Below, in pieces: positions 5,892 through 40,262 of a DNA stretch of 47,276 nt (position 1 is the stretch's first letter; every line of letters begins with the position of its first letter). Under the pieces are notes generated by a model. The model had not been told where the DNA came from, searched no databases, and was given only the letters and a program-made list of their open reading frames with translations. The position numbers and the translations under genes are program-made. This stretch comes from an uncultured Oscillospiraceae bacterium (GTDB taxonomy: Bacteria; Bacillota; Clostridia; Oscillospirales; Oscillospiraceae), in assembly GCA_947624585.1 (NCBI GenBank), contig CANQKZ010000008.1, positions 1 to 47,276 on the forward strand, written 5' to 3'.

Positions 5892-6260
5892 ATGAAAGTC
5901 ACCATCGCAGGAAACGCCGTCGTCATCACCTCCTCCCTGAAGCTGGAGGACATCAACACCATCAAGAAGTATCGGCCCCAGGCCCTTACCCTGATGGGCG
6001 GCGACGACGGCAAGGGCGGCATCAACGCCAACGGCGCGATCTTCGCGGAGAAGAGCCGTGACGGGAACGAGTACGCCGTCATCACCATGCCCCTGGACGC
6101 CCCCGCCGGCGACATCGAGTCCGCCAAGGCCCACCTGGCCGATACCCTGGGCGACGCCGCCGCCCACCTGACCGCCCTGGAGGCCAAGCTCCCCGCCGTT
6201 CTGGAGGAGATCCGAGGCCAGCGCAAGTCCTTCATGGACGGCATCACCGTCATGGCCTGA
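5892..6260 (+). CDS. accessory protein of ubiquitin-like module, 122 aa
   Basis: ATG at 5892 follows AAAAGGAGACC. It has an N-terminal beta-rich part (MKVTIAGNAVVITSSLKLED) with a YRPQALTLMGGDDG loop, and a helical C-terminal third (LTALEAKLPAVLEEIRGQRK). From memory, similar proteins accompany ThiF/JAB/Ubl clusters in Firmicutes mobile elements related to PRTRC systems. I cannot confirm that by search. It is first in the module, 80 bases ahead of the beta-grasp candidate. Confidence 0.75.
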   Translation: MKVTIAGNAVVITSSLKLEDINTIKKYRPQALTLMGGDDGKGGINANGAIFAEKSRDGNEYAVITMPLDAPAGDIESAKAHLADTLGDAAAHLTALEAKLPAVLEEIRGQRKSFMDGITVMA

Positions 6261-6340: not shown

Positions 6341-6586
6341 ATGAACATGATCAAGGTCTACTACGGCGATAACGTCAACCGCACCCCCACCATGGTGGAG
6401 AACACCACCCCCATCCACGCCTTCATGGACGCCCACGGCATGGACCGCTCCCGCACCACCCAGATGAGCGGCACCACCCTCCGCCCCGAGGACATGAACA
6501 AGACCTTCGCCGATTTCGGCTTCGGCGTCGGCGACGGCGCCACCACCGTCGTCCTCACCACCATCGCCAAGCTCGACAACGCCTAA
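6341..6586 (+). CDS. candidate ubiquitin-like (beta-grasp) protein, 81 aa
   Basis: ATG at 6341 follows AAAAGGAGCTAC. The length and pattern fit a beta-grasp fold: a first strand IKVYYGDN, a turn, a second strand, a helix (PIHAFMDAHGM), a mid loop (TTLRPEDMNKTFADFG) and a last strand (TTVVLTTIAKLD). This resembles PRTRC protein C-type Ubl proteins. The C-terminus is KLDNA with no di-glycine. Conjugation would therefore need a different terminus, as in several bacterial Ubl families, or the protein may not be conjugated. Neighbouring E1-, E2- and JAMM-like genes support the call. Confidence 0.65.
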   Translation: MNMIKVYYGDNVNRTPTMVENTTPIHAFMDAHGMDRSRTTQMSGTTLRPEDMNKTFADFGFGVGDGATTVVLTTIAKLDNA

Positions 6587-6760: not shown

Positions 6761-8224
6761 GTGTTCAGAGAAAGCGTCACTTCCACCGTATTCACCTCCG
6801 AGGCCGCGGATGAGCTTTTCAAAAACATCACCGGCGAGCCCTTTGGGGGTGACTGCTCCTTCCTGTCCACCCTCCGGGCCCTGCTGGGGCCCCGCGTCCC
6901 GGCGGAGGACCGCGTCCGTCTCGTCTTCAACCGCTCCTCTCTCTCCGCGTCGTCGGTGGCGGATGAGCCTCCCGAGGACATCTTCGATTCCATCCTGGAC
7001 GGCGGCGGCATAACGGAGTGCTCCGGGGTTTTGTACATCCACAGCCTCAACGGCCTCCAGGACGACAACAAGGCCGTCATGTCCGTGATCTACGACCACT
7101 TCACCGAGGTCTACCCCAAATTCCGGCGTCTCGACAAGGTCATCGCTCTCTTCCGCCCCTCCTTCCCCCTGTACTGCTTCGTCTCGGACGAGCTGAAAAC
7201 CGTGATCCTCTTTGTGGACAGGCTGGGCACCCAGAAGCTCCACTACATCCAGTGTGCCGCGCTCCCGCTGTTCCCCTGGTATTTTGACGGGAAGGTCTCC
7301 CCGCAGGAGCTGGAGCTGATGAAGACCTTCCGGGGCGATTCCATAGCGGAGTACACCCGCGTCCTCACAGAGCTTTCCGCCGCCTACGATTTCCGTTCCG
7401 CCCGGGTCCGCAAGCTCCTGTTCGGGTTTGAGACACGCCGCAGCAAAGCGGAGCTTCAGAAGGTCACCTCGGAGATCGGGGAGTGTGACACGAAGCTCAA
7501 CCAGCTCAACGATCAGTTCGGAAGCTACATCCGGATGAGAAACGATCTTTGCGTCCGACAGCTCGGCCTGGAGCGCGTCATCGCCGAGGGAGGCGCCGAG
7601 TCCGCCCTTATGGATTATTTCCTGGGGAACCGTTCCCTCTACCTGCGGGAGGTCTCCGATTCCCAGATTACCTTCGCCGTCAAGGACTACCTCACCTACT
7701 TTGACCGCGAGCTTGCCGACAGCGTCATCCGGAACGCGAGGAGCGACGCCTACTCCTATCTCCCCTCGGGGATTTCCAAGCCGCAGGCAAAAAAGCTCCT
7801 GACCGAGATTTTTGTCTCCGACTCTCCCCGGCTTCGCGTCAAGACCTGCGCCGTCTACAGGCTCGACCTGAACGGCTCCGCCAACGGCGTTTCCGGCGCC
7901 ACATACGGCCCGGAGTTTGCCGACGCGATCCCCAACATGCACATTGAGAGATATGGCTGCCTCGGCGGGTACCACACGGTCATCAACGGGTTTTTGAAGA
8001 AGGGGGACTACATCGGCGCCGTAGAGCAGTGCGTCGCCTCCGCGAAGAACCTCAGCTTTAGCGACGGCGCCGTCATGGACAACTTCTTCCCCGCGTTTTT
8101 CAAGGGCGGCGGGTACAACAACAGATGCGTCGAGCTCCCCGACGGGTCCGTCGTGACCCCGACAGAGGCGGTGAAATGGCTTGAGTCACAAGAAAAAGAG
8201 GAAGGAGAAAAGACCGATGAGTAA
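6761..8224 (+). CDS. putative E2-like protein of the ubiquitin-like module, 487 aa
   Basis: GTG at 6761 with AAGCGAGGTG upstream. The N-terminal 210 residues look globular, and residues about 225-265 are charged and heptad-like (probable coiled coil). The C-terminal region around NMHIERYGCLGGYHTV (residues 392-406) has the His-x(n)-Cys-Leu-Gly pattern of divergent E2/UBC folds, with Cys400 as candidate acceptor. It is followed by helices (DYIGAVEQCVASAKNLS). PRTRC protein B-like proteins have comparable layouts. It overlaps the JAMM gene by eight bases. The E2 role is inference from that motif and the neighbours. Confidence 0.6.
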   Translation: MFRESVTSTVFTSEAADELFKNITGEPFGGDCSFLSTLRALLGPRVPAEDRVRLVFNRSSLSASSVADEPPEDIFDSILDGGGITECSGVLYIHSLNGLQDDNKAVMSVIYDHFTEVYPKFRRLDKVIALFRPSFPLYCFVSDELKTVILFVDRLGTQKLHYIQCAALPLFPWYFDGKVSPQELELMKTFRGDSIAEYTRVLTELSAAYDFRSARVRKLLFGFETRRSKAELQKVTSEIGECDTKLNQLNDQFGSYIRMRNDLCVRQLGLERVIAEGGAESALMDYFLGNRSLYLREVSDSQITFAVKDYLTYFDRELADSVIRNARSDAYSYLPSGISKPQAKKLLTEIFVSDSPRLRVKTCAVYRLDLNGSANGVSGATYGPEFADAIPNMHIERYGCLGGYHTVINGFLKKGDYIGAVEQCVASAKNLSFSDGAVMDNFFPAFFKGGGYNNRCVELPDGSVVTPTEAVKWLESQEKEEGEKTDE

Positions 8225-9107
8225 GTTTATCCGCGTCCCCGAGGAGGCCCTGGAGGACATCCGCACCGGCTTCGAGGCCGCCCTGTCCTCCGCAAGGTTC
8301 GCCTGTGGCAAGTTTTCCTTCAGCAAGACCTTCCCGGACATCCGCCGGGATGCCCGCATCCACTACACCCGCGAAGCGTGGGAGAAGCAGCGGCGCCTCA
8401 TTGACGTCTTTGACAAGGAGGTCGCCTGGCACGGTATCGCCTCCCGCGGCGAGGATGAGAACAGCGACGACTACTACATCTCCGACATCCTGGTCTACCC
8501 CCAGACCGTCACCGGCGCCAGCGTGGATATGGATACGGATGCGTATGCCAAGTGGATCACCGACCACCTCATGGCCGGTGACGAGCGCTTCGAGCACATC
8601 TACATGCAGGCCCACTCCCACGTCCGCATGGCCACATCCCCGTCCCCCACGGACCTCTCCCACCAGGCGGACATCCTCTCCCAGCTCAAGGACGATGATT
8701 TCTACATTTTCATGATCTGGAACAAAAACGGCTCCAACACCATCTGGATCTACGACATGAAGAAGAACGTTCTCTTTGAGGACAAGGACATCTTCGTGGT
8801 GATAGACGGAGAGCAGGCCTACGACGCCTTCATCGCCGAGGCCAAGTCCCTTGTGAAGGACAGGGTCACCACCTACTACTACGGCGGAAAATCCTCTCCT
8901 CTCATCACACCCCCCTACACGGGCGCCCCTGAGGAGAAAAAATCCTCCGTCCCCTCGGTCAACGCCTCCGAAAAACCCCGCACCCGCATCGACGCCGGCA
9001 CCCCCCACAAGCCCGTCAACACCCACTACGACGACGAGGAGGACGAGTACCTTCGCCGCATGTACGGCGACGAGTACCGCGACGCCTTCTTCTCGAGTGG
9101 GAAATAG
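8217..9107 (+). CDS. JAMM/MPN metallopeptidase (deubiquitinase-like), 296 aa
   Basis: ATG at 8217 overlaps the upstream gene, with ribosome site GAAGGAGAAAAG. Residues H133, H135, S143 and D146 fit the JAMM zinc motif H-x-H-x(7)-S-x(2)-D exactly (HSHVRMATSPSPTD). E68 in KEVAWHGI is the likely catalytic acid in the upstream strand. A disordered Pro/Glu-rich region and a DDEEDEYLRRMYGDEYRD tail follow the domain. JAMM enzymes remove or process ubiquitin-like proteins, and this is the expected partner of the Ubl and E1 genes. It ends with TAG, directly before a terminator. Confidence 0.88.
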   Translation: MSKFIRVPEEALEDIRTGFEAALSSARFACGKFSFSKTFPDIRRDARIHYTREAWEKQRRLIDVFDKEVAWHGIASRGEDENSDDYYISDILVYPQTVTGASVDMDTDAYAKWITDHLMAGDERFEHIYMQAHSHVRMATSPSPTDLSHQADILSQLKDDDFYIFMIWNKNGSNTIWIYDMKKNVLFEDKDIFVVIDGEQAYDAFIAEAKSLVKDRVTTYYYGGKSSPLITPPYTGAPEEKKSSVPSVNASEKPRTRIDAGTPHKPVNTHYDDEEDEYLRRMYGDEYRDAFFSSGK

Positions 9108-9138: not shown

Positions 9139-9438
9139 AGGTTGTAACGAATTTTCCCTTTTTCCCAGGGAGCTTCGCGCCAAAGGCCGAAGTATCGCCT
9201 TGATCGAACGACCACCCAGGGCCAAGGCAGCAATGAGGGGCCCGCGGAAGGCTTCATGGCTGAAGTCGGTACAGCAAAAGAAGCCAGGAACCACGAAATC
9301 CAAGAGTTCCGGGGTCAGGAAACCGGCACACAGGAGCCATCCGACCAAGCAAATCAGGCCCAAAGGTCGCACCGCATCCAGAGTCGAGCGCGATGTCGAT
9401 CCTAACTGCTGCAGATAATCTATATGTGGTTACAACCT
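9139..9438 (+). ncRNA. RT-linked noncoding RNA, copy 1
   Basis: A 10-bp inverted repeat AGGTTGTAAC (9139-9148) / GTTACAACCT (9429-9438) bounds 300 bases that end 42 bases before the reverse transcriptase start. Inside are a TCCC/GGGA hairpin, then CTTCG-CGCCAAAGGC-CGAAG (9173-9192), a TTGATCGAACGA motif, and a T-poor stretch containing GCCAGGAACCAC (9283-9294). The same order recurs at 12222-12534, with a compensatory change in the second hairpin (GCC/GGC becomes GTC/GAC). Terminal pairing upstream of an RT recalls retron a1/a2 repeats, but no long msd hairpin is obvious. Confidence 0.75.
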
Positions 9439-9480
9439 ACGCCTCCGGCGGTTTTTCATTTTTGGAAAGGAGGTCACCCA

Positions 9481-10637
9481 TGGTCTACATCACCGTCCAC
9501 CAATCCCCCGCCTACCATCACATCACTTTTGACGAGCTTTTTTCCCAGACCTTCTCCGAGGCCGGCCTTGTGCGCTCCAACGAGTCCAATACCCGCACCT
9601 ACCGGGCGGCGTCTGCCAGCCGGACCTTCACGGGGACCTTAAGTCCCCATTGGCTCATCGGCCGCCTTTGTGAGTTCAATGAATCCACAAAGGATCTGCG
9701 CGAGACCGCTGACCGTCACAGCCTCTACCGGCGGTTTTTCATCCCCAAACGGTCCGGCGGCCTCAGGCCCATCAACGCTCCCTGCCCCGCGCTGATGGAC
9801 GCCCTCCGCCGGCTCAAGCGGATTTTTGAGGACGACTTCCGCGCCCTCTACCACACCTGCGCCTTCGCCTACGTCAGCGGCAGGAGCGCCGTTGACGCGG
9901 TCCGCCGCCACCAGCAAAACGAGAGCCGCTGGTTTGCCAAGCTCGACATCCACGACTTCTTCGGCAGCACCACCCCGGACTTCGTCATGAAGATGTTCTC
10001 CATGGTTTTCCCCTTTTCCGAGATCGTCAAGCTCCCCCAGGGCCGTGAGGCGCTGTCCGCCGCTTTGGACCTCGCCTTCCTGGACGGCGGTCTCCCCCAG
10101 GGAACGCCCATCTCCCCGCTCATCACCAACATCATGATGATCCCGGTGGATTTTGAGCTCAGCCGCGCCCTCCGGGACCTGGGCGGCCAGCGCTTCGTCT
10201 ACACCCGCTACGCCGACGACTTCCTCATCTCCTCCCGCCAGGATTTCAGTGTGGAAAAAATTGAAAAGCTCGTCGCCGACACCCTCGGCGGTTTTTCAGC
10301 CCCCTTCCGGCTCAATGAGAAGAAGACCCGCTACGGTTCCTCCGCCGGGAGCAACTGGAACCTGGGCGTCATGCTCAACAAGGACAACAACATCACCGTC
10401 GGCTACAGGCGCAAGCGCACCCTCCAGTCCATGCTCTATAACTACATCCGCGACCGCAGCGCCGGGGTTTTCTGGACGCTGGAGGATGTCCAGCGCCTCC
10501 AGGGGGAGCTCAGCTACTGCCGCATGGTGGAGCCCGACGTCATCGATGCCGTCGTCGCCCACCTCAACGAAAAGCTGGGCGCGGACATCCGCGCTTACAT
10601 AAGCGCGGACCTGCGCTCTGCCAAAACCCTTGCGTGA
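9481..10637 (+). CDS. reverse transcriptase, 385 aa
   Basis: ATG at 9481 is set by AAAGGAGGT (9467-9475); earlier in-frame codons lie in the ncRNA. RT blocks are present in order: FIPKRSGGLRPINAP (88-101), FAKLDIHDFFGS with D156, GLPQGTPISP (204-213), YTRYADDFLIS with the YADD centre (241-251), and LNEKKTRY, with NLGVMLNKDNN and basic YRRKR after it. QGxxxSP excludes a DGR-type enzyme (IGxxxSQ). There is no maturase or endonuclease domain, so it is not an intact group II intron protein. Size and layout fit retron or defence-type RTs. It lies inside the Ubl module with its cognate RNA candidate upstream. Confidence 0.93.
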
Positions 10638-10824
10638 TTTTTGCCCGCCGTGCCTATCGGACGCTTGCCGGTTTCCCCGGCGGCCTCCCCTTCCCGCCAA
10701 CGGCGGAAGGCCCGCTCCAAATCCTTTATCCCCCTGTATACAGCTCCGCCTCATCATTAGGATCACGGCTCCGCTGTATAGACGGCAGGCAACCCCCAAA
10801 CAAAAAAAGCGAAGGAGACGTCCC

Positions 10825-11112
10825 ATGGTAGACACCAAAATTCTCAAACCCGGCGACCGCGTCCGCATCGTAGACCGCTGGCCCGCCGACGGATCGGCCG
10901 TCCAGAATCCGGAAGGTAAAATGGACCATTGGCTGGGCCAAACCATGACGGTCAAGTATGTAGGCCTCTGTACAGTCGCAATGTGTGAGGACGATGGGGA
11001 GCGGTACGGCGGAGGGTGGGCGTGGTACCCCGGCGCCATCGCCTGCGTCGTAGAGGGCACCAACTTCTCCCCCGCCTCCGAGTCCGACTTCCTCGGCCTC
11101 CTGTCCTCCTGA
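10825..11112 (+). CDS. SH3-like small protein with shared C-terminal tail, 95 aa
   Basis: ATG at 10825 follows GAAGGAGACG. The N-terminus LKPGDRVRIVDRWPADGS is nearly identical to that of the protein at 31777-32070, and both contain GKMD-x-WLG. The tail is FSPASESDFLGLLSS. The pair are clear paralogues 21 kb apart. It is probably a small beta-barrel (KOW/SH3-like) fused to the shared docking tail. Function is unknown. Confidence 0.8.
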   Translation: MVDTKILKPGDRVRIVDRWPADGSAVQNPEGKMDHWLGQTMTVKYVGLCTVAMCEDDGERYGGGWAWYPGAIACVVEGTNFSPASESDFLGLLSS

Positions 11113-11130
11113 CCGCCCCAGGCGGTTTTT
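11113..11130 (+). terminator. intrinsic terminator
   Basis: CCGCC/GGCGG with a three-base loop is followed by TTTTTG, immediately after the 95-aa gene and before the E1 gene. Confidence 0.6.
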
Positions 11131-11169
11131 GAGTTTTCCAGCCATATTCACGAAAAGGAGCTGATTTTT

Positions 11170-11847
11170 ATGATCGACCTGAGCAAATCCTACGAGTATT
11201 TCCACCCCGAATCCGTGGAGGGCCGCATCCACATCATCGGCTGCGGCTCCATCGGCGCCACCCTGGCCGAAAACCTTCTCCGCCTCGGCCTCACCAAGCT
11301 CACCCTGTGGGACTTTGACAAGGTGGAGGCCCACAACCTGGCCAACCAGATCTTCCGCCAGAAGGACATCGGCAAGCCGAAGGTGGAAGCCCTCCGGGAC
11401 ATCCTGACGGAGATCGACCCGGACTGCGCCGGGGAGCTCCGTCTCCAGCCCAAGGGCTGGGACGGCCAGCAGCTCGGCGGTTACGTCTTCCTCTGCGTGG
11501 ACAACATCGACCTCCGCCGCCGGATCGTGGAGCAGCACATGGACAGCCCCTACGTCCGTGCCATGCTGGATTTCCGCACCGGCCTGGAGTGCGCCCAGCT
11601 CTACGCCGCCGACTGGTCCGACCGCCAGATGAAGCAGAACCTCCTCAACTCCATGAGCTTCTCCCATGATGAGGCCAAGGCCGAGACCCCCGTCTCCGCC
11701 TGCGGCGTCACCCTGGGCGTGGTTTCCACCGTCCGCGCCGCCGTGGCCTTCGGCGTGGCCAACCTCGTAAACTACGTCAACGGCAAGGGCCTGAGAAAGT
11801 TCATCAACATCGACATCTTCCACTACGTCCTGGACAGCTTCCTGTAA
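11170..11847 (+). CDS. ThiF/E1-like adenylyltransferase, 225 aa
   Basis: ATG at 11170 follows AAAAGGAGC. The Rossmann nucleotide site is HIIGCGSIGATLAENL (21-36), with LWDFDKVEAHNLANQIFRQKDIGKPK (46-71) carrying the Asp, Asn, Arg/Gln and Lys that bind ATP and magnesium. CVDNIDLRR (109-117) is the second Asp motif. Cys178 in PVSACGVTLG sits where ThiF/MoeB/PRTRC ThiF proteins keep a conserved Cys. It lacks a separate Ubl-binding domain, as expected for a minimal E1. It should activate the 81-aa Ubl candidate. Confidence 0.92.
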   Translation: MIDLSKSYEYFHPESVEGRIHIIGCGSIGATLAENLLRLGLTKLTLWDFDKVEAHNLANQIFRQKDIGKPKVEALRDILTEIDPDCAGELRLQPKGWDGQQLGGYVFLCVDNIDLRRRIVEQHMDSPYVRAMLDFRTGLECAQLYAADWSDRQMKQNLLNSMSFSHDEAKAETPVSACGVTLGVVSTVRAAVAFGVANLVNYVNGKGLRKFINIDIFHYVLDSFL

Positions 11848-11881
11848 AGCACCTGGCGGTTTTTGAGAAAGGGGAGATTTT

Positions 11882-12196
11882 GTGGCGATCGACGAGCGCG
11901 CCCTTAAGCCCGGCCTTGAAGTCTACTGCTCCACACCGGCGGACAGCGCCCAGCTCCTGTCCGGACTCCATGGCCTCGGATACAAGTGGTCCTCCGGGAC
12001 AAGCCTTCTGAGAAAAGACAACGAGGGTTTTTTCGCGAGGGTTTGGGAGGGCGACGGAACATTTGTCATTCACAGCGGAAAGGCCGTCCGCTATGGCCGT
12101 GGCGACGACTCCGACAGCGTCCCCCTTTGCGAGATCCTTGCGCTCTCCTTCTCTCCCGCCCCCGAGGCGGATTTTCTCTCCCTTCTGGGCCTCTGA
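11882..12196 (+). CDS. small protein with shared C-terminal tail, 104 aa
   Basis: GTG at 11882 follows AAAGGGGAG. The N-terminus is ERALKPGLEVYCSTPADS, and the core has the strand FFARVWEGDGTFVIHS. The C-terminus LSFSPAPEADFLSLLGL is the cleanest example of the shared tail in the window. The core is unrelated in sequence to the PGDRVRIVDRW members, so the tail is attached to more than one domain type. Confidence 0.75.
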   Translation: MAIDERALKPGLEVYCSTPADSAQLLSGLHGLGYKWSSGTSLLRKDNEGFFARVWEGDGTFVIHSGKAVRYGRGDDSDSVPLCEILALSFSPAPEADFLSLLGL

Positions 12197-12221
12197 CGGC
12201 CCAAATCCAATAATTTTCCCA

Positions 12222-12534
12222 AGCGGTTTTACAATGTATAACGTCTTCCCCAAGACGTACTTCGCGTCAATGACCGAAGTAACGATTTGATCGAGCGATC
12301 CGGACGGAAATCAGCCCGACGGCAGGCCACTGCGGTACTCAAGTGACAAAGAACATCAGACAAAAAAAACCCGAGCTGCGAGACAAAAAGTACCCAAAAG
12401 ACGGGACAAGACAGAGCCCACTCAAACAAGAATAAAGACTGCGACCCGAGAGTAAACGCCGACGGAGTCGCCAAGCAATGGAGACCCAACTCCAGAAGGC
12501 TGCCAGGAACCACATTCAAGATCGTAAAACCGCT
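12222..12534 (+). ncRNA. RT-linked noncoding RNA, copy 2
   Basis: An 11-bp inverted repeat AGCGGTTTTAC (12222-12232) / GTAAAACCGCT (12524-12534) bounds 313 bases. An ACGTC/GACGT hairpin is followed by ACTTCG-CGTCAATGAC-CGAAGT (12259-12280), then TTTGATCGAGCGAT. A roughly 180-base A-rich, almost T-free tract runs to GCCAGGAACCAC (12502-12513). Order, loops and motifs match copy 1, while the end repeats differ in sequence but are again complementary. The gene after it (12556) is not an RT, so the RNA may act in trans with the RT at 9481. Confidence 0.72.
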
Positions 12535-24853: not shown

Positions 24854-25663
24854 GTGGTTTTTCTCAACGACAAGCCCGTCGCAGTGTCCTCCTTCCCCGA
24901 CGGTACACCCCTTCTCCGCTTTGATGTGAACGACGCGGGCGTGGGGTTTTTCATTATCCGCTGGCTATACGACAGCGACGCCGAGTGCATGACGGTCTGG
25001 CACCTGGTCCGCCACCTCCGCAGCAAGATCAATATGGCATACATCGGTTTAGACCTCCCTTACATCCCCAACGCCCGGATGGACCGGGTCAAATCCCCCG
25101 ACGAGGTCTTCACCCTCAAGTGGTTCGCGGAGTTTTTGAACGCCCTCAAGCTTGACCGTGTGCGGGTCTTGGACCCCCACTCCAACGTCTCCGCCGCCCT
25201 CATCGACCGCGTGAAGATCGACACACCAGAGCCTTACATCCAAAAAGCCTTAGACGAGATCCCGGCCTCCGACGGGCTGGTTTTTTGTTACCCGGACGAG
25301 GGCGCCGCCAAGCGCTATTCCGGGCTTTTTGAGCGCGAATACGTCTTCGGCATCAAGCACCGGGACTGGCGCACCGGCAGGATCGAGCGTCTGGAGATCA
25401 CCACCCCGGAGAAAGTGAAAGGCCGTGACGTGCTCATCGTAGACGACATCTGTTCCCACGGCGGCACCTTCACCTTCACCGCAAAGGCCCTGAAAGCGGC
25501 CGGCGCCAACCATATTTATCTCTACGTCACCCACTGTGAAAACACGATTTTCCAGGGCTCCGTTCTGACCGACGGCCTCATCGACCGGGTTTTCACCACC
25601 AACAGCATCTTCCGTGGCACGCACGACAACATCACGGTTTTCGAGGTGAACGACGATGATTGA
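24854..25663 (+). CDS. PRPP-synthetase-like enzyme (possible ADPR-pyrophosphate synthetase), 269 aa
   Basis: GTG at 24854, three bases after the previous stop, with GGAGGCGTGACCC upstream. DLPYIPNARMDR (68-79) and the PRPP loop DVLIVDDICSHGGTF (192-206) are clear. At 269 aa it is shorter than bacterial Prs (about 315). It overlaps the NAMPT-like gene by eight bases. In published NARP1 phages such a Prs homologue pyrophosphorylates ADP-ribose. Whether this enzyme acts on ribose-5-phosphate or ADP-ribose cannot be read directly from the sequence. Confidence 0.88.
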   Translation: MVFLNDKPVAVSSFPDGTPLLRFDVNDAGVGFFIIRWLYDSDAECMTVWHLVRHLRSKINMAYIGLDLPYIPNARMDRVKSPDEVFTLKWFAEFLNALKLDRVRVLDPHSNVSAALIDRVKIDTPEPYIQKALDEIPASDGLVFCYPDEGAAKRYSGLFEREYVFGIKHRDWRTGRIERLEITTPEKVKGRDVLIVDDICSHGGTFTFTAKALKAAGANHIYLYVTHCENTIFQGSVLTDGLIDRVFTTNSIFRGTHDNITVFEVNDDD

Positions 25664-27170
25664 CTACAACCCTCTCCTGTGTCTCGATTTCTACAAGACG
25701 GCCCACGCCGCCCAGTACCCACAGGGCCTCACAAAGATGGTCTCCTACTACACGCCCCGCATGTCCCGCCTCGCCGACACGGACAAGGTCACCATGTTCG
25801 GCCTCCAGGCGTTCATCCAGGACTACCTGATAGACGCCTTTAACCGGTGGTTTTTCAGCCGCGATGTGGAGGTCGTGGTTTCCGAGTATAAGCGTGTCCT
25901 CAACGCCACCATCGGCACGGACGGCGTGGGCGAGGCCCGCGTCCGGGCCCTCCATGAGCTCGGCTACCTCCCCCTCCTCATCCGCGCCGTCCCGGAGGGC
26001 GTCCGCACCGACATCCACGTCCCGCAGATCGAGATCTCCAACACCCACCCCCAGTTTGTGTGGCTGGTGAACACCATCGAGACCATGCTCTCCGCCACCA
26101 TGTGGCACACCCAGGTTTCCGCCGAGGTTGGCTGGCGCTATCGCCAGATCGTCAACGAGTACGCCCAGCGCACCTGCGACGACACCGTATCCCGGGCGCG
26201 CCTTTTGGGCGATTTTTCCATGCGTGGCCAGGAGAGCGTGGAGTCCGCCACCAAAAGCTCCGCCGCCTTCTGCCTGAGCTTCCTCAACACCGCCACCGTC
26301 CCGGCAATTTTGTGGCTTGAAAAGCACTACGACTGCGACTGCACAAAAGAGCCCGTGGCCTACGGCGCCCTCTCCACGGAGCACAGCGTCATGTGCTCCA
26401 ACTTCGCCGTGGACGGCGACGAGGAGATTCACATCCGCCGCCTGCTCACGGAAATCTACCCCCACCAGAGCTTCTCCATGGTCGGCGACAGCTACGATTA
26501 CTGGCGTCTGGTGCGGGAAATTTTGCCTCGCCTCAAGGACGAGATCCTCGCCCACGACGGGTGCCTCTCCATTCGCGGCGACAGCGGCGACCCGGTGGAG
26601 GTCGTCACCCAGACGGTTTTTGACCTCTGGGAGATTTTCGGCGGCACGGTGAACAGCAAGGGCTATAAAGTTCTGGACCCCCACGTCAAGGCCCTCTACG
26701 GCGACAGCATCACGCCCCAGCGCTGCGAGGCGATCTACGCCATTCTGGAGAAGAACGGCTTTGCCGTCAACAACGTCTCCCTAGGCGTCGGTTCCTTCTC
26801 CATGCAGTGCCTGGAGGAATGGTATGAGGACGTTGACGCCCCGTACCCCCGGCAGCGTGTTGCCTACGCCCCCTATACCCGCGACACCTTCGGCATCGCC
26901 GTCAAGGCCACCTACGCCGAGGACGAGACCGGCCGCCCCATCATGATCTACAAAGACCCCAAGACCGACAGCGCCCACTTCAAGAAGTCCCAGCGCGGCT
27001 GCTGCCGGGTTTTTAAGACGGAAACCGGCTATGCCTACGAGGACGGCCTCACCTGGCGGGAATCCATGAAGAGCGGCAACGAGCTGCGCCCCGTCTTCGC
27101 CAACGGTAAATTCATCCGCCACTATACCCTGGCCGAGGTCCGCGAGAATCTCCACCATGGCGGTTTTTGA
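25656..27170 (+). CDS. nadV: nicotinamide phosphoribosyltransferase-like protein (NadV/Namat), 504 aa
   Basis: ATG at 25656 overlaps the Prs-like gene. Family features in order are DFYKTAHAAQYP, YYTPRMSR, FSMRGQESVES, ALSTEHSV, SMVGDSYDYW, IRGDSGDPVEVV, YGDSITPQR, and GVGSFSMQ with KDPKTDSAHFKKSQRG. Full length for NAMPT. The classical reaction is nicotinamide plus PRPP to NMN. In NARP1 the homologue joins nicotinamide to ADP-ribose pyrophosphate to give NAD+ directly. The tight coupling to the Prs-like gene favours that pathway. Confidence 0.93.
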   Translation: MIDYNPLLCLDFYKTAHAAQYPQGLTKMVSYYTPRMSRLADTDKVTMFGLQAFIQDYLIDAFNRWFFSRDVEVVVSEYKRVLNATIGTDGVGEARVRALHELGYLPLLIRAVPEGVRTDIHVPQIEISNTHPQFVWLVNTIETMLSATMWHTQVSAEVGWRYRQIVNEYAQRTCDDTVSRARLLGDFSMRGQESVESATKSSAAFCLSFLNTATVPAILWLEKHYDCDCTKEPVAYGALSTEHSVMCSNFAVDGDEEIHIRRLLTEIYPHQSFSMVGDSYDYWRLVREILPRLKDEILAHDGCLSIRGDSGDPVEVVTQTVFDLWEIFGGTVNSKGYKVLDPHVKALYGDSITPQRCEAIYAILEKNGFAVNNVSLGVGSFSMQCLEEWYEDVDAPYPRQRVAYAPYTRDTFGIAVKATYAEDETGRPIMIYKDPKTDSAHFKKSQRGCCRVFKTETGYAYEDGLTWRESMKSGNELRPVFANGKFIRHYTLAEVRENLHHGGF

Positions 27171-27186
27171 GTTTAAGGAGGAACCA

Positions 27187-27948
27187 ATGTCTGACATGAA
27201 CGAAACAAAAGACCGGATCGTCCAATGGATACGCTCCTACTTCAAGGAAAACGGCCCCCAGTGCTTCGCCGTCGTCGGCATCTCCGGCGGCAAGGACTCC
27301 AGTGTCACCGCAGCCCTCTGCGCCGAAGCCCTCGGCCCCAAGCGGGTTTTTGGGGTTTTGATGCCTCAGGGGGACCAGCCGGATATTGCCGACAGCTACC
27401 TCCTGGTGAAGCATCTCGGCATCCCCTACACGGAGATCGACATCGGCGAGGCGTGCGCCCTTCTCTGCCGCTCCGTCCGCCACGGCCTCGGTGCGGTAAC
27501 CGAGCAGACGAAAATAAACCTCCCAGCCCGTGTCCGCATGGCCACCCTCTACGCCGTGGCCCAGTCCCTCTCCCAGGGCGGCCGCGTCGCCAACACCTGT
27601 AACCTCTCCGAGGATTACGTGGGCTATTCCACCAAGTTCGGCGACAGCGCCGGGGATTTTGCCCCCTTGGCCACCCTCACGGTCCACGAGGTCGTGGAGC
27701 TCGGCCACGTCCTCGGCCTCCCCGCCCGCCTTGTGGACAAGCCCCCTTCCGACGGCCTGTGCGGCAAGACGGACGAGGACAACCTGGGCTTCACTTATGC
27801 CCAACTGGACGCCTATATCCGCTCCGGCGCCAGCGGCGACCCGGAGGTGGACAAGAAGATCGCGTCCCTCCACGCCAAAAACCTCCACAAGCTCCTGCCC
27901 ATGCCGCGCCCCGATCTCTGGATTTCCCCTAGAAAGGGCGCCATATGA
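27187..27948 (+). CDS. nadE: NAD+ synthetase, ammonia-dependent, 253 aa
   Basis: ATG at 27187 follows AAGGAGG; the earlier ATG at 27157 lies inside the preceding gene. GISGGKDSS (31-39) is the ATP-pyrophosphatase loop. TCNLSEDYVGYSTKFGDSAGDFAPLATLTV and LPARLVDKPPSDGLCGKTDEDNLGFTYAQLD complete the NadE pattern. There is no glutaminase domain. It amidates nicotinate adenine dinucleotide to NAD+. No nicotinate phosphoribosyltransferase is visible in the window. Confidence 0.95.
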   Translation: MSDMNETKDRIVQWIRSYFKENGPQCFAVVGISGGKDSSVTAALCAEALGPKRVFGVLMPQGDQPDIADSYLLVKHLGIPYTEIDIGEACALLCRSVRHGLGAVTEQTKINLPARVRMATLYAVAQSLSQGGRVANTCNLSEDYVGYSTKFGDSAGDFAPLATLTVHEVVELGHVLGLPARLVDKPPSDGLCGKTDEDNLGFTYAQLDAYIRSGASGDPEVDKKIASLHAKNLHKLLPMPRPDLWISPRKGAI

Positions 27949-28744: not shown

Positions 28745-29017
28745 ATGGTTCCCATCAAAAATCTTCACCCCGGCGACCGCGTCAAAATCGTTGACAAATT
28801 TAAACCGTTTGGCTCATACCGGTACGCCAATCCCGTCCCGGATATGGAACAATGGCTTGGAAAAATTATGACGGTCAACGTACTAGAAAAAAATATCGCA
28901 AGGATGGAGGAAACCTGTTGGGTGTGGGATCCGGGAATGCTGGACTACATCGTTGAAGACACTCTAATCGTCCCCGCCTCCGAGGCGGATTTTCTCTCCC
29001 TTCTGGCAAGTGCCTGA
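28745..29017 (+). CDS. SH3-like small protein with shared C-terminal tail, 90 aa
   Basis: ATG at 28745 follows AAAAGGAGGTCCGTC. LHPGDRVKIVDKFKPFGSY and WLGKIMTVNV mark it as a paralogue of the proteins at 10825 and 31777. The tail is LIVPASEADFLSLLASA. The next gene, 18 bases on, is another member. Confidence 0.8.
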   Translation: MVPIKNLHPGDRVKIVDKFKPFGSYRYANPVPDMEQWLGKIMTVNVLEKNIARMEETCWVWDPGMLDYIVEDTLIVPASEADFLSLLASA

Positions 29018-29034: not shown

Positions 29035-29328
29035 ATGGTTGATATAGAAGCACTCTCCCCCGGTATGCTCGTCAAGATCGTGGACCGTTGGCCAGAATCG
29101 CACGATGTACATATAAACCAAATGGAAGATCTGCGCGGCAGTATCGGTGAGGTCATTTCCGTTGACACCGAAAGTGTGTTTGATGAGCCCGTCGCCATCT
29201 TGTGTACGGAAAACCCCAGGCAGCGCTGGGCGTACACAGGCCATATGATCGACTGCATCATATCCTCCCCCAACGAGCCCTTCTCCCCCGCCCCGGAGGA
29301 GGACCTGCTCGCCCTTCTTCGCGCTTAA
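29035..29328 (+). CDS. SH3-like small protein with shared C-terminal tail, 97 aa
   Basis: ATG at 29035 follows AAAGAGGTGACCAC. It opens with ALSPGMLVKIVDRWPESHD and contains LRGSIGEVISVD. The tail is PFSPAPEEDLLALLRA. With the preceding gene it forms a tandem pair. Confidence 0.8.
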   Translation: MVDIEALSPGMLVKIVDRWPESHDVHINQMEDLRGSIGEVISVDTESVFDEPVAILCTENPRQRWAYTGHMIDCIISSPNEPFSPAPEEDLLALLRA

Positions 29329-31189: not shown

Positions 31190-31771
31190 ATGCCCAAAAC
31201 CTTCTACCTCGCCGACTGGCACTACGGCCACGCCAATATCCTCGCCTACGACGACCGGCCCTTCCGGACGGTAGACGAGATGAACGCGGCCCTTGTGGAC
31301 CGCTGGAATCGCGCCGTCTCCCCCGACGATTTCGTCTATATCCTCGGCGATATGTTCTGGTGCGGCCAGCGGGACGCCATTCCCATCCTGGACGCCCTGC
31401 ACGGCCGCAAGGTCCTTGTGCGCGGCAACCACGACCGGGTGGGCGACGACTTCTCCCGGCGGTTTTTGAAAATCTGCGACTACCTGGAGGTCGAGGACGA
31501 TGGCCGCCACATCGTCCTGTGCCACTACCCTATTCCCTGCTTTAATAACCACACCCTCCCTAGCTGGTTCCACTTCTACGGCCATGTCCACAACTCCTTT
31601 GAGTGGAAGATGACCGAGCACTCCGCCCGCCTCATGCGTGACCTCTATATGCGTCCCTGTACGATGATCAACGTGGGCGTCATGATGCCCTGGATGGACT
31701 ATGCCCCACGCACCTTCAGCGAAATCCTCCACGGCGCCGCGGCCTACGACAGACAAACAGAAAAGGAGTGA
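31190..31771 (+). CDS. calcineurin-like metallophosphoesterase, 193 aa
   Basis: ATG at 31190 follows ACGGAGGCTCCCT. The motifs are LADWHYGHANI (D9, H11), LGDMFW (D54), VRGNHDR (N80, H81), LCHYP and FYGHVHN, which together supply the two-metal site. The family cleaves phosphoesters. Small phage members act on nucleotides or RNA ends, including 2',3'-cyclic phosphates in some cases. The true substrate is unknown. Confidence 0.93.
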   Translation: MPKTFYLADWHYGHANILAYDDRPFRTVDEMNAALVDRWNRAVSPDDFVYILGDMFWCGQRDAIPILDALHGRKVLVRGNHDRVGDDFSRRFLKICDYLEVEDDGRHIVLCHYPIPCFNNHTLPSWFHFYGHVHNSFEWKMTEHSARLMRDLYMRPCTMINVGVMMPWMDYAPRTFSEILHGAAAYDRQTEKE

Positions 31772-31776
31772 CCGCC

Positions 31777-32070
31777 ATGGTAGATATCAGCACTCTCAAC
31801 CCCGGCGACCGCGTCCGCATCGTAGACCGCTGGCCCGCCGACGGATCAGCGAGGCAGAATCCGGATGGGAAAATGGATAAATGGCTGGGCAGTGTTATGA
31901 CGGTCAGTGGGGTCGGTAATGACTTCGTCAAGATGCTGGAGGATTGCAATGATAGGAACAGCTGGCGCGGCTGGGCTTGGAACTCTTTCACAATCGCCTA
32001 CGTGATAGAGGATGACGCCGATTTTTCTCCCGCCCCCGAGTCCGACTTCCTCTCCCTCATCGCCCCTTAA
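31777..32070 (+). CDS. SH3-like small protein with shared C-terminal tail, 97 aa
   Basis: ATG at 31777 follows AAAAGGAGTGACCGCC. LNPGDRVRIVDRWPADGSARQ and GKMDKWLGSVMTV are nearly the same as in the 10825 protein, at DNA level as well. The tail is DFSPAPESDFLSLIAP. It is a clear duplication within the genome. Confidence 0.82.
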   Translation: MVDISTLNPGDRVRIVDRWPADGSARQNPDGKMDKWLGSVMTVSGVGNDFVKMLEDCNDRNSWRGWAWNSFTIAYVIEDDADFSPAPESDFLSLIAP

Positions 32071-36124: not shown

Positions 36125-36335
36125 GAAACTGGCAGAAAAAGGCCAACGGCCTTTTTCTGCCAAAGGAAACGTGCGAAAAGCCTCCGTACACGCCTGCGGG
36201 CGCGTGTCGAAGGCCAACCGCCCCGCAGGGGCGGCTCTTAGGCCGGAGACGAGCTGGCACGGCCGAAGGCCGTGACTGAGGGGTTTCCGACGTACATGCC
36301 GCCGGAAAAAATGCTCGATAGGCGAATTTTTCCCC
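36125..36335 (-). repeat. hairpin cassette with conserved linkers, copy N
   Basis: On the minus strand, block 1 (36284-36320) repeats TATCGAGCATTTTTTCCGGC...GTACGTCGGAAA, and block 2 (36158-36179) repeats TTTTCGCACGTTTCC-TTTGGCA. Between and after them are hairpins unrelated to copy P: CACGGCC/GGCCGTG, CCGCCCC/GGGGCGG, ACACGC/GCGTGT, and a perfect GGCAGAAAAAGGCC/GGCCTTTTTCTGCC. The block 1 stem has changed on both sides relative to copy P. It lies upstream of the ERF gene. Confidence 0.8.
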
Positions 36336-36373
36336 AAGTTTGGTTCTATCAAAGAAATTTTAGGAGGTTTTCT

Positions 36374-37078
36374 ATGTCCGATTCAACACCCGGCATGAAC
36401 ATCTACCAGAAGCTCGCGGAGATCCGCAAGCAGGTGGAGGTCATGCGCAAAACAAAAAAGGGCTTCAACTTTACCTACGTCCCGGAGGACGAGATTCTGG
36501 CCAAGGTCACGGTGTACATGCGGCGCTTTCACCTCTCCCTCGTCCCCTCGATCAGCGCCGGCACCACCGAGGTGAACCCCATCTCCTACACCAAGACCCG
36601 CGTAGACAAGACCGGCAAGCCTTACACAGAAGAAATTAACGAGGTCATCGTCAAGTCCGAGATGACCTGGACCTGGATCAACAACGACAACCCGGAGGAG
36701 CGCGTCGTGGTTCCCTGGGTCATGGTCGGCCAACAGGGGGACGCCTCCCAGGCCTTCGGCTCCGGCCTCACCTACTCAAGCCGCTACTTCCTCCTGAAGT
36801 ATTTCAACGTCGCCACCTCCGACGACGACCCGGACAAGTTCCGCGACAAGCAGAAAAAGGCCGAGGCAGCGGAGGACGCCCTGGTTGCCGAGGCCATCAT
36901 CCGCGATTTTGACGTCCTGGTCCGCTCCCATCTCGCCGCGCATCCGGAAGCCAAGGAGGAGGTCAAGAAGTTCATCACCGGGTATGTGAAGAACGGCGAC
37001 TATTTCACGATCTCTCAATCCGCCGTGGCCTCCAGGCTCATGTCGGATTTCCGGGATAAATATAAAGTGAAGGAGTGA
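36374..37078 (+). CDS. erf: ERF-family single-strand annealing protein, 234 aa
   Basis: ATG at 36374 follows TTAGGAGGTTTTCT. NIYQKLAEIRKQVEVMRKTKKGFNFTYVPEDEILAKV and the GQQGDASQAFGSGLTYSSRYFLLKYFNV block are ERF hallmarks, and DDDPDKFRDKQKK follows. ERF proteins anneal complementary single strands in phage recombination. The SSB-like gene follows directly, as is usual. Confidence 0.95.
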   Translation: MSDSTPGMNIYQKLAEIRKQVEVMRKTKKGFNFTYVPEDEILAKVTVYMRRFHLSLVPSISAGTTEVNPISYTKTRVDKTGKPYTEEINEVIVKSEMTWTWINNDNPEERVVVPWVMVGQQGDASQAFGSGLTYSSRYFLLKYFNVATSDDDPDKFRDKQKKAEAAEDALVAEAIIRDFDVLVRSHLAAHPEAKEEVKKFITGYVKNGDYFTISQSAVASRLMSDFRDKYKVKE

Positions 37079-37083
37079 TCTCT

Positions 37084-37464
37084 ATGGGTTTCAGAACAGG
37101 CGCGTATGCCAAGATCTGGGACGTGTCCCCCATGAGCGACACAAGCACCAAGCTCCGGCTCTCTGTCAGCCGGAAGAACAAGAAGACCGGCGAGTTTGAG
37201 GAGGATTTTTCCGGCTTTGTCCTCGCCATTGGCACCGCCAACGCCGCTAAGGCCGCGAAGCTCTCCAAGGGTGACCGCATCAAGCTGGGCGACGTGGACG
37301 TGTCCACCAAGTACGATAGGGACAGCAAGACCACCTACGTCAACTACAAGCTCTTTTCCTTCGACCTCTCCGACGCCCCCGCCGGCAATAACGCCGGCCT
37401 CTACGAACCTCCCCAGCCGGACGTGGACAGCGGAGACGCCGACGACGGCCACCTCCCCTTTTAA
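37084..37464 (+). CDS. SSB-like single-stranded DNA-binding protein, 126 aa
   Basis: ATG at 37084 lies after GAAGGAGTGATCTCT. The core (TGAYAKIWDVSPMSDTSTKLRLSVSRKNKKTGEFEE...GDRIKLGDVDVSTKYDRDSKTTYVNYKLFSF) fits an OB fold. The end DVDSGDADDGHLPF is the acidic, hydrophobic-tipped tail by which SSBs recruit partners. Sequence is diverged from housekeeping SSB. Confidence 0.82.
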   Translation: MGFRTGAYAKIWDVSPMSDTSTKLRLSVSRKNKKTGEFEEDFSGFVLAIGTANAAKAAKLSKGDRIKLGDVDVSTKYDRDSKTTYVNYKLFSFDLSDAPAGNNAGLYEPPQPDVDSGDADDGHLPF

Positions 37465-37489
37465 TAGCGGCCATACGCAGGCATAACCG

Positions 37490-38278
37490 ATGGACAAATG
37501 TCCTGTTGACGATCCGCGCGGTATGGTCTGGAGCTACTCCCGGGCCCGCTCCTTCGAGGACTGCCCCTACCGGTGGTTTTTGAGATACATAAAGTCCCCT
37601 CCCGAGGCGCCCCGGGACACTTTTTTTGCCTCCTACGGCCACTTCCTCCATGGGCTTTTGGACTCCTGGTACAAAAGCCCGCCGGAGGCTAAGCCGGACC
37701 TGCGCCTTGCCTACCTCACCCGTTTTCGGGAGGAGGTCCGCGGAACCCCACCCAGCGAAAAGGTTTTTGAGACATACTTTAAGGACGGTCTTTCCTACGT
37801 CTCCGGCTTCAAACCCTTCCCCTTCCGCCCCATCGGAACGGAGGTGGAGGTCCGCTATACGCTGGACGGCCTACCCATGCGCGGTTTTCTGGATTTTTTA
37901 GGGCGCGGGGAGGACGGCTCATTGGCGCTGGTGGACCACAAATCCCGTGCCCTCCGCCCCCGGAGCCGCCGGGCAGCCCCCACCAAAAACGACCTGGAGC
38001 TGGACGCCTATTTTCGCCAGCTCTATCTTTATGCCCCGGCTGTGGAGCAGACCTTCGGGGAAAAGCCAAAAACGCTGTGCCTCAACTGTTTTCGCACGGG
38101 GTCCCTGATTACGGAGCCATTCGACCCCTCCGCCTTTGACCGGGCCAAATCCTGGTTTTTCTCCTGCGTAGACCGCGCCTCTCACGAGCGCGACTTTCCG
38201 CCGCGCCCGGAGTGGTTCAAATGCAACTTCCTGTGCGAGTACGCCGCCGACTGTGAATACTTTAATTTAATTAAATAG
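37490..38278 (+). CDS. PD-(D/E)XK nuclease (RecB/Cas4-like), 262 aa
   Basis: ATG at 37490; the preceding AGGCATAACCG is a weak ribosome site. VWSYSRARSFEDCPYRWFLRYI is the helical motif with a first Cys, GFLDFLGRGEDGSLALVDHKS carries the catalytic Asp, Asp and Lys, and YFRQLYLYAPAV is the QxxxY helix. FKCNFLCEYAADCEYF at the C-terminus supplies three more Cys, giving a likely 4Fe-4S cluster as in Cas4/AddB. It likely works with ERF and SSB as a recombination exonuclease. Confidence 0.88.
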   Translation: MDKCPVDDPRGMVWSYSRARSFEDCPYRWFLRYIKSPPEAPRDTFFASYGHFLHGLLDSWYKSPPEAKPDLRLAYLTRFREEVRGTPPSEKVFETYFKDGLSYVSGFKPFPFRPIGTEVEVRYTLDGLPMRGFLDFLGRGEDGSLALVDHKSRALRPRSRRAAPTKNDLELDAYFRQLYLYAPAVEQTFGEKPKTLCLNCFRTGSLITEPFDPSAFDRAKSWFFSCVDRASHERDFPPRPEWFKCNFLCEYAADCEYFNLIK

Positions 38279-38298: not shown

Positions 38299-39321
38299 TT
38301 GCGAGCTGAAGAAAATTTTGCCCGCGTAGAGAGTGAGTCCGGCATCATCGCCACCCTCGTAAAGCACCCCGAGTTTTCGTTCTACTCAGAAAATCTTCTC
38401 CCCAATCACTTCTTTGACGAGGACAACCGCTGTATCTACGCCGCCATCTGCGAGCTTGCCAGAAGCGGCGTCAAGACGGTGGACCCCTACAACATCATGG
38501 AGGTTTTGGGGAAAAGCCCCGCCACACGGCGGGTTTCCGACCGCCTGAGCGTGGACTCCCTCTATACCCTCATGGAGGTGAGCGACAGCATCTGCCGCCA
38601 CTCGGTGGAGGAGTATAGGCTCCTGGTCTCCAACGTCCTGGAGGCCGCCATGCGCCGGGACCTCTACCGGCGCCTCCGGGAGTGTGAGGACGTCTGCATG
38701 GACGCCTCCCAGAAGGACGTGGAGAGCCGCGTCAGCAAGCTCCTGGACGACGTGCTGGTCAGCTACTCCAGCGTCGTGGATATCCCCCAGTTCAAGGACG
38801 TGGTGGACGACTGCTACGCCCTCATCAAGAGCCGCCAGGCCGAGGGCTACGCCGGCATCCCCTTTAAATTCCCGGCGCTCAACGAGTACGCCACCATCGA
38901 GCGCGGCGAGCTTTTCATCTTCGGCGCGGAGCAGAAGCAGGGCAAGAGCATGATGCTTTTAAACTGCGCCGTGGATCTCCTAAAGCGCGACCAGGCGGTT
39001 TTGTATCTGGACAGTGAACTCAACACCCGCCTTTTTACAGCCCGCATCCTCGCCCACCTCACCGGCATCGAATACAAGGCTCTTGTCTCCGGCCGGTACG
39101 ACGAGGAGGGCGAGCGCCGTATCCAGGCGGCCATTGCCTGGCTCAAGACCCGCCGCTTCACCCACATCTACATCCCCCTCTTCGACCCCCAGAGCATCTA
39201 CGCCGCCGTCAAAAAGGTCTACCACACCCAGGGCCTCGACGTCCTCATCGTGGATTATTTCAAGGGTCGGGGCGAAGGCGACGCCTTCGACAGCTATCAA
39301 GAGCTCGGCCGATTTGTGGAT
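38299..39321 (+). CDS. dnaB: DnaB-like replicative helicase, exon 1 (341 codons)
   Basis: TTG at 38299 follows GGAAAGGAGG. The N-terminal domain (ESESGIIATLVKHPEFSFYSENLLPNHFFDEDNR) is followed by the RecA-like core with Walker A FGAEQKQGKSMML (about 207-219) and Walker B VLIVDYFKG (about 315). The exon stops after ELGRFVD at codon 341, where a group I intron begins. The reading frame joins perfectly to 40263, giving a 443-residue helicase. Unspliced translation would add RRRVHVKLI and stop. Confidence 0.93.
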
Positions 39322-40262
39322 AGACGCCGTGTCCACGTAAAACTCATTTAATTGCTGGAAACCCCTAAGAGCCGCGCAAACCACAACGTGAGGATGAAAT
39401 AAGCCTGGCCGTGATGGTTTAAAGATTGCGCGGATTGGGCAATCAGCAGCCAAGGCCCGAACAGGGCAGGGTCCAACGACCATCCCTACGGGGAGTAGGG
39501 CGCAAGTGCGCCCGAAACAATGAGCATTGATGATATGGTCTGATCTCCTGTGAAAACAGGAGCTGCATACGCAGGGCGCCGGGTAACGCCGGAATACCGT
39601 GAAAGGAGGTTATATATGGAAGACGAAATGATTGGAAAAGTCTTCGACCATCTCTCTGTTGTAGAGAGACTGGAAGATTACGTAACACCGACCGGGGGAA
39701 AACACAAACGGTACTTATGCAAATGTTCTTGCGGCAAAGAAACAGCGGTCCTCAAAGAGTACCTTACGTCCGGGCGCCAAAAGTCATGCGGATGCCAAAG
39801 GGGTCGAGAGATAACGCACGGTCACACAAGCACAAGGATTTATAGAATTTGGGCCAACATGGTTAACCGATGCACCAATCCGAACAATCCGGCCTACCAC
39901 AATTACGGTGGGCGTGGCATAACGGTTTGCGACGAGTGGAGAAAATTTGAGCCTTTTCTGGCATGGGCTGAATCTTCTGGATATTCTGACCAGCTAACAA
40001 TAGATCGGATCGACAATGAGTCCGGGTATTATCCTGAGAATTGCCGGTGGGTCAACGACTTCACTCAGGCAAACAACAAGCGAAGCAACCGTTTCGTCGA
40101 ATACGGCGGTCAAAGCATGACGCTTGCAGACTGGTCTAGGGCCGTCGGCATACCATATAAAACCCTCCATAGACGCCTTGTGGCATCTGGTTGGGACGTA
40201 GAACGCGCCTTGACACAGAAGCTCAGAAAAGGAAAGTCAACGGTTTGCCAAACACAAAACTG
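39322..40262 (+). ncRNA. group I intron in the DnaB gene
   Basis: The exon end GTGGAT (39316-39321) pairs with intron GTCCAC (39331-39336), placing U-G at the 5' splice site. The intron ends in G40262 just before ATGGTCAAG. Core-like segments GGGCAATCAGCAGCCAAG (39437-39454) and GTCCAACGACCATCC (39471-39485) and a GATATGGTCTGATC P9-like segment near 39531 follow the group IA order. Removal of 941 nt restores the DnaB frame (FVD-MVKNQICG). It carries its own homing endonuclease gene. Confidence 0.9.

Follow-up and report, generated by a model that had tools for sequence, protein, structure and literature searches.

The stretch of DNA considered here, referred to as the window, is a whole contig of 47,276 nucleotides (CANQKZ010000008.1) from an uncultured Oscillospiraceae bacterium, with phage-type replication genes for a DNA polymerase, a primase and a DnaB-like helicase. 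It also carries a reverse transcriptase (RT) gene that lies between two copies of a structured RNA of about 300 nt. Together, these components probably form a retron-like, multi-template reverse-transcription system of phages, a reading to which we give a probability of roughly 65% from comparisons of sequence. By the membership tests, the system is not filed as a retron; by its features, it appears to be built as if it worked like one. Two characteristics are new, namely that several template-like RNAs accompany one RT and that the middle of these RNAs is unalignable between nearly all copies and, in two sets of near-identical phages, much more divergent than its flanks. The RNA family, its structure, its linkage to the RT, the synteny of the loci and the variability of the middle are all observed directly in the data described below.

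The RNA family and its linkage to the reverse transcriptase

Two RNAs had been proposed at these places in the initial annotation, and both are real. A 39-nt core pattern has exactly two matches in the window, against none in 100 shuffles, and is found nowhere else in the 3.28-Mb genome to which the window belongs. As had been described, copy 1 is closed by a 10-bp inverted repeat and copy 2 by a different one that is again self-complementary (Table 1). The two hairpins that the copies were said to share are also present, and hairpin 2 shows the predicted compensatory change (GCC/GGC in copy 1, GTC/GAC in copy 2). Folded alone, copy 2 beats its shuffles in stability (z -2.86). Other shared features turned out to be less general. 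The GATCGA motif is not conserved in the wider family, where just part of TTGA is kept (as judged by eye on 60 of the 150 rows), and GCCAGGAACCAC does occur in both window copies but at different places (9283 and 12502), and was not seen as a family feature. Similarly, the T-poor tract is real in both middles, with 12.8% T in copy 1 (218 nt, 9211-9428) and 8.5% in copy 2 (223 nt, 12298-12520), but it is more a trait of these two copies, which are among the seven T-poorest of 125 (median 20.4%), than of the family.

Relatives of the RT were collected from virus and genome contigs. The single protein as query found 11; with an alignment as query, the best 80 of 379 encoding stretches were taken, and from genome contigs the best 80 of at least 567, of which L094-L125 resemble the clade of the window RT and 48 are more distant. 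The 124 RT loci were reduced to 103 by the removal of near-copies at 92% identity and, after L122, L124 and L125 were dropped, to 100. For a first covariance model, which covers the 5′ domain, 29 sequences were used, both window copies among them. Run on both strands of these 100 loci (1.48 Mb), it yielded 171 matches at E<=1, all 171 on the RT strand, among which the training sequences match by construction. A broader model, built from 58 sequences, 18 of them diverged look-alikes, gave 244 matches at E<=10; of these, 241 lie on the RT strand, and the other 3, at E 6.9-9.8, lie on the minus strand. No covariance-model match at E<=1 occurs in the 48 loci whose RTs are more distant and mostly retron-like; these control RTs were not typed one by one, 42 of the 50 references have the motif NAxxH, and L194 is annotated as a retron.

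The linkage is also seen in sequences other than those used for modeling. Four loci found by protein alone were outside model building, and RNA copies are present in three of them (two each in L175 and L176, and one in L193 at E 0.012). Within the same genus, the RNA occurs in 3 of 34 genomes, all three among the 4 with the RT, and in none of the 30 without it, with at most 134 candidates scored per genome. In whole phage records, 18 of 31 have matches at E<=0.01 with the first model, about 15 kb or less from the RT where positions were compared. Several loci lacking a first-model match leave about 300 nt free before the RT and show diverged look-alikes there, as judged by eye. A search for this linkage with a covariance model had been set beforehand as a check, and it came out as predicted: related phage RTs have homologous RNAs next to them, which share their strand and often number several per RT.

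Copy counts rest on the best 150 matches of each of the two models and are lower bounds for loci that are cut. There are 172 RNA copies in 79 of the 100 loci: one copy in 26 loci, two in 24, three in 23, four in 4, five in 1 and eight in 1, which gives at least two in 53 of 79. For 61 copies, the distance from the end of the 5′ domain to the RT downstream is 420 nt or less (96 loci extend far enough to show this, and 61 have such a copy); another 59 of the 172 begin no more than 450 nt past the RT, and the remaining 52 are found at other places. Copy midpoints fall inside a plus-strand open reading frame (ORF) of at least 120 aa in 3 of 172 cases, compared with 520 of 860 random points. Some copies are neighbors of phage tRNA and tmRNA genes or lie among them (L025 2446-5310, L095 and L006).

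In 150 aligned matches, 85.0% of the cells in the two hairpins are paired versus 60.7% in shuffles, and two-sided changes number 575 versus 155, with far lower values for slid versions, in an alignment that is itself model-fitted. In a MAFFT-only alignment of 58 sequences, hairpin 2 has 110 two-sided changes versus 28.8. The closing repeats vary between copies yet pair within a copy: 69% of 146 own pairs score at least 20, against 2.9% of swapped pairs, and the own partner beats all 20 swaps in 87 of 146 and fails to do so in 59. Directly after the 5′ repeat, 144 of 150 copies have a G. Of the 150 copies, 125 count as complete RNAs (a2 score of at least 16 and span of 200-400), and in 120 of the 125 a G directly precedes the 3′ repeat. 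The full length has a median of 303 nt (5-95%, 274-354, with spans outside 200-400 excluded).

This order is that of a retron RNA: a1, priming G, two hairpins, template and a2. For Retron Eco8, two msr stem loops, a branching G and a first DNA base of dC are reported (PMC12887533), and a second source states, for retrons in general, that the noncoding RNA (ncRNA) is closed by inverted repeats a1/a2 and that synthesis starts from a guanosine next to them (PMC8989520). The RNAs of this family resemble those of retrons in adjoining the RT, in being closed by inverted repeats, in the G next to a1 and in the two hairpins. It is mainly because of this match (a1-G, two hairpins, G-a2) that the system is read as retron-like. 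Inverted-repeat bounds might also arise by chance, or be left over from a group II intron or a transposable element; nevertheless, such an origin is extremely improbable given the covariation and linkage statistics, a group II maturase profile that scores the RT far under its cut-off (84 vs 300 bits), and the lack of any Rfam intron match at the RNAs. In our view, linkage and covariation refute it.

Relationship of the reverse transcriptase to known systems

The best start of the RT ORF is an ATG that follows AAAGGAGG. Its protein matches the PADLOC profile RT_II-A (1e-47), the NCBIfam profile retron_St85_RT (1.1e-51; 175.8 bits, under the NCBIfam cut-off of 235) and the PDB entry of the Ec83 retron RT (1.9e-39), so that retrons of types I-A/II-A (St85, Ec78 and Ec83 RT families) are its nearest relatives by profile. 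A phylogeny had been recommended, and in a quick tree with a short reference set and one long outgroup the RT falls in a clade of its own that comprises 32 rows (31 plus L193; SH-aLRT 98) and is split from 47 reference rows, retron-like by motif and not typed individually, with SH-aLRT 93. Retron RTs have the motifs NAxxH in region X and VTG in region Y. As judged from its sequence, the RT is nearest to those of retrons but belongs to a separate clade mostly without these motifs. At the place of VTG, NLG is present in 74 of 102 clade RTs and a variant of NLG in 14 more. In one relative (L007, 6001-7368), the RT has an insert of about 80 aa close to the first conserved motif.

The initial annotation had left open whether the system was retron-like or DRT-like. 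The first option agrees with the data, through the St85 match and the a1-G...G-a2 layout, and the second agrees less. As far as they have been described, members of the DRT2, DRT3 and DRT9 family likewise have an RT with an adjacent ncRNA, but the RT is just distantly related to theirs, and the layout of DRT RNAs differs from the one found here. Under a DRT-like mechanism, the RNAs would be templates for protein-primed, untemplated or rolling copying, as in DRT2/DRT9-type defence, and the closing stem would merely hold the RNA. The upstream ncRNA, the lack of a classical retron effector and a weak Drt2 match (43.3 bits, 2.7e-11, cut-off 390) are in keeping with this idea. Nevertheless, it is quite unlikely, as the RT scores far higher with retron than with DRT models (Drt3a gives 28.4 bits for a cut-off of 200), the a1-G...G-a2 layout is present, and the middle hardly looks like an open frame: 43 plus-strand frames are fully open versus 32.7 in shuffles, which is not a strong coding signal, and neither window copy has such a frame.

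The variable middle and the proposed mechanism

The frame of the RNA is conserved, but its middle is hardly ever shared between copies. Similarity between middles at E<1e-3 is limited to 2 pairs among the 125 complete RNAs. Certain short words are overrepresented, for instance GCAGCAGG, which occurs in 15 middles versus 1.2 expected. The T-poor part that is common to the family is limited to the first 40 nt or so after the 5′ domain, with 8.9% and then 15% T compared with 25% in the loci.

In two sets of near-identical phages, the middle of one copy is far more diverged than its flanks. L091, L092 and L215 have flanks that are 96-98% identical and nearly identical frames, while the middle of one copy is strongly diverged (74% identity for L091/L215, 53% for L092/L215 and 50% for L091/L092, with a shuffled baseline of 43%). 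In L091/L215, 29 of 50 changes in the middle are transversions, versus 8 of 41 in the flanks. Similarly, the middle of copy 3 is 65% identical in L019/L022 (28 transversions among 71 changes), with flanks at 99%. This divergence could result from fast substitution or from exchange with unseen relatives.

A diversity-generating retroelement, or another retrohoming system that copies the RNA middle into a target, might show such divergence (74% and 50% identity against 97-98% in the flanks). However, its signs are missing, and this origin is very improbable. Neither window middle recurs in the genome of the window (the best other matches have E 0.62 and 0.34), so that no template/variable repeat pair is seen there; the fetched loci have no clear target, with just near-identical contigs and weak short matches; the changes are not adenine-specific; and no accessory gene was recognized among the most frequent neighbors, which were not profile-tested.

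It may also be proposed that the RNAs are not copied at all. In this reading, the RT or other proteins would bind them as functional structured RNAs, which might for instance regulate the RT or host factors or act as decoys for them, with the middle as a passive spacer. The lack of conserved structure or sequence in the middle would agree with this, as would the 52 copies away from the RT, some of them beside tRNA genes. By contrast, the kept RNA length and T-poor start, the retron-type end bases conserved on both sides and a YADD motif that is invariant in 11 aligned RTs speak for copying. In addition, a passive spacer is not expected to outpace coding flanks so far, in a comparison where neutral drift and recombination were not modeled. 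Uncopied RNAs are therefore unlikely.

If the system is retron-like, transcription, priming, copying and function, all of which we infer, could proceed as follows. The a1/a2 stem would close each RNA of about 300 nt, and the RT would recognize this stem plus the two hairpins. Priming would take place from the 2′-OH of the conserved G after a1, and copying would start at the conserved G before a2; therefore, the first DNA base would be C, as reported for Retron-Eco8. The variable middle would then serve as template for a single-stranded DNA that is attached to the hairpin part. A single RT may serve one to several RNAs (up to eight were seen in one locus), and the phage would therefore make several different small DNAs. 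A linked cassette with ubiquitin-like (Ubl), JAB and E1 proteins, described below, would be the likely partner, either as an effector or as a regulator.

It is known that retrons are bacterial defence systems. The fast-changing middle of some lineages would be as expected of DNAs in an arms race, for instance as decoys or sensors against the defences of the host or of rival phages. A more ambitious version of this idea is possible, though doubtful: the phage would possess retron-like cassettes in an array, constant in their frame and actively diversified in their payload. From these, one RT would produce single-stranded DNAs in a changing set, which would work with Ubl conjugation as a diversifying DNA-decoy or DNA-sensor system. 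In this case, the RT or a partner would be tagged, or the DNA would be sensed. If the RNAs are copied, they would be an example of the use of retron-type DNA by viruses and a natural case of one RT that serves many templates, which may be useful for DNA production in cells, and they would tie reverse transcription to ubiquitin-like conjugation in prokaryotes.

Several observations weigh against a retron-like system. Unlike retrons, the RT forms a separate clade, and by a simple pattern count just 2 of 102 clade RTs have NAxxH and 1 of 102 has VTG, versus 42 and 33 of 50 references. To our knowledge, each retron has one template RNA, and several per RT are not known for retrons, while loci here have one to eight. 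A stable hairpin in the template region is typical of retron msd; by contrast, the highly variable middle contains no conserved helix beyond swapped or shuffled controls in a fold test of 60 middles. Also unlike retrons, the system is phage-borne, with the Ubl cassette linked, and no known retron effector was recognized beside the RT, with effector profiles run on part of the neighbors; apart from that cassette, there is no near-universal neighbor family (the next is present in 31 of 100 loci). Folded alone, copy 1 is no better than shuffles (z -0.85; 20 of 100 equal it). The covariance model found no RNA copy in L177, the fourth of the loci found by protein alone, and 13 of the 31 whole phage records, mostly from distant branches, have no match at E<=0.01 with the first model. 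In L012, the gap before the RT is just 48 nt, with no room for a copy. Finally, in seven pairs of near-identical phages, 11 of 13 middles are about as conserved as their flanks.

The ubiquitin-like cassette and the phage context

The RT was described as carried by a phage within a ubiquitin-like module, and this is borne out by the relatives: Ubl, protein B, JAB and ThiF are all present in 72 of the 76 loci whose upstream sequence exceeds 5.5 kb, none of them on the opposite strand. The order Ubl-B-JAB-ThiF-RT is kept in 71 of the 72 loci having all four genes; the window breaks it, with ThiF after the RT. A structural model of Ubl (pLDDT 85.7) matches SUMO, ubiquitin and bacterial Ubl structures, and its C-terminal consensus is KADNA, not GG. 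The C-terminal part of protein B is weakly like RWD/E2 folds, with H394 and C400 invariant, and ThiF matches PADLOC E1-E2 profiles. The profiles of a further conserved neighbor, o5892, and of Ubl match one ORF in L008, L055, L061, L075 and L082; thus, these two proteins seem to be fused in some relatives.

Similar cassettes are known from other elements. In the PRTRC cassette of plasmids, ThiF, JAB, Ubl and protein B stand in a row, and gene content and order are alike here. A PRTRC_ThiF match is weak (1.3e-4; 21.4 bits, cut-off 144.75), Ubl, B and JAB have no PRTRC profile match, and no link between an RT and PRTRC is apparent among the titles listed. There is also a likeness to bacterial E1-E2-JAB-Ubl operons of the Bil/CBASS type, as the Ubl model matches E1-E2-Ubl and Ubl-deubiquitinase structures (8tyz and 8tyx); in contrast to these operons, an RT is linked here and an E2 is not established.

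The RT and the RNA family are carried by phages, mostly found with gut bacteria. The window contig has no terminase (PF03237), and matches in its own genome are only on contigs C65, C249, C1 and C19. Among 19 virus records with RT relatives, 17 have a terminase match at E<=0.001, 11 of these over the family cut-off; since terminase is present in most RT-bearing virus records, the system belongs to tailed phages. An Erf-like single-strand annealing protein and an exonuclease are encoded at 36272-38278 of the window, and Erf-like proteins occur in 12 of the 19 related phage records. Given the Erf-like proteins, the DNAs may play a part in recombination, although this would not be specific.

Table 1. 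Positions of the RNA copies, the RT gene and the conserved neighbors in the window
Feature	Position	Strand	Basis
o5892, conserved neighbor	5892..6260	+	75/100 loci
Ubiquitin-like protein (Ubl; predicted SUMO/Ub-like fold)	6341..6586	+	homologues in 76/100 loci
Protein B	6761..8224	+	80/100 loci
JAB/JAMM protease-like protein (HxH...SxxD invariant)	8214..9107	+	85/100 loci
RNA copy 1 (candidate msr-msd-like template RNA), 300 nt	9139..9438	+	covariance-model match 62.4 bits; inverted repeat
a1-like 5′ repeat, copy 1 (AGGTTGTAAC)	9139..9148	+	pairs with 9429-9438, 10/10
Conserved G after a1, copy 1 (candidate priming guanosine)	9149..9149	+	family-wide G count
Hairpin 1, copy 1	9155..9171	+	fold and covariation
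Hairpin 2, copy 1	9173..9192	+	fold, core pattern, covariation
Variable middle (candidate template), copy 1	9212..9428	+	middle comparisons
Conserved G before a2, copy 1 (candidate first templated base)	9428..9428	+	family-wide G count
a2-like 3′ repeat, copy 1 (GTTACAACCT)	9429..9438	+	pairs with a1, 10/10
RT, NWNLG clade (385 aa; YADD; retron-related)	9480..10637	+	profiles, alignment, tree
ThiF/E1-like protein	11170..11847	+	90/100 loci
RNA copy 2, 313 nt	12222..12534	+	covariance-model match 49.0 bits; inverted repeat
a1-like repeat, copy 2	12222..12235 (extended arm; core 12222-12232)	+	pairs with 3′ arm
Conserved G after a1, copy 2	12236..12236	+	family-wide G count
Hairpin 1, copy 2	12242..12257	+	fold and covariation
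Hairpin 2, copy 2	12260..12279	+	fold, core pattern, covariation
Variable middle, copy 2	12299..12520	+	middle comparisons
a2-like repeat, copy 2	12521..12534	+	G at 12520 directly before

Some further features of the window may be mentioned. A GCGGTTTTT-like motif recurs along the strand, as seen by eye, between a stop codon and the ribosome site of the following gene near 9450, 11120, 11855, 13020 and 13613. A protein family of about 90 aa is present in several copies (10825-11112, 28745-29017, 29035-29328 and 31768-32070), as it is in several relatives. A RAGATH-16 RNA is located at 863-933 (74.4 bits) and is followed, up to 1337, by about 400 nt that look hairpin-rich and noncoding by eye. 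In the region 38299-40263, a group I intron (39246-39562) lies at the end of a DnaB-like helicase ORF and is followed by an HNH endonuclease ORF (39550-40263). Finally, genes for a nicotinamide phosphoribosyltransferase and an NAD synthetase adjoin at 25656-27948 and are possibly an NAD salvage pair.

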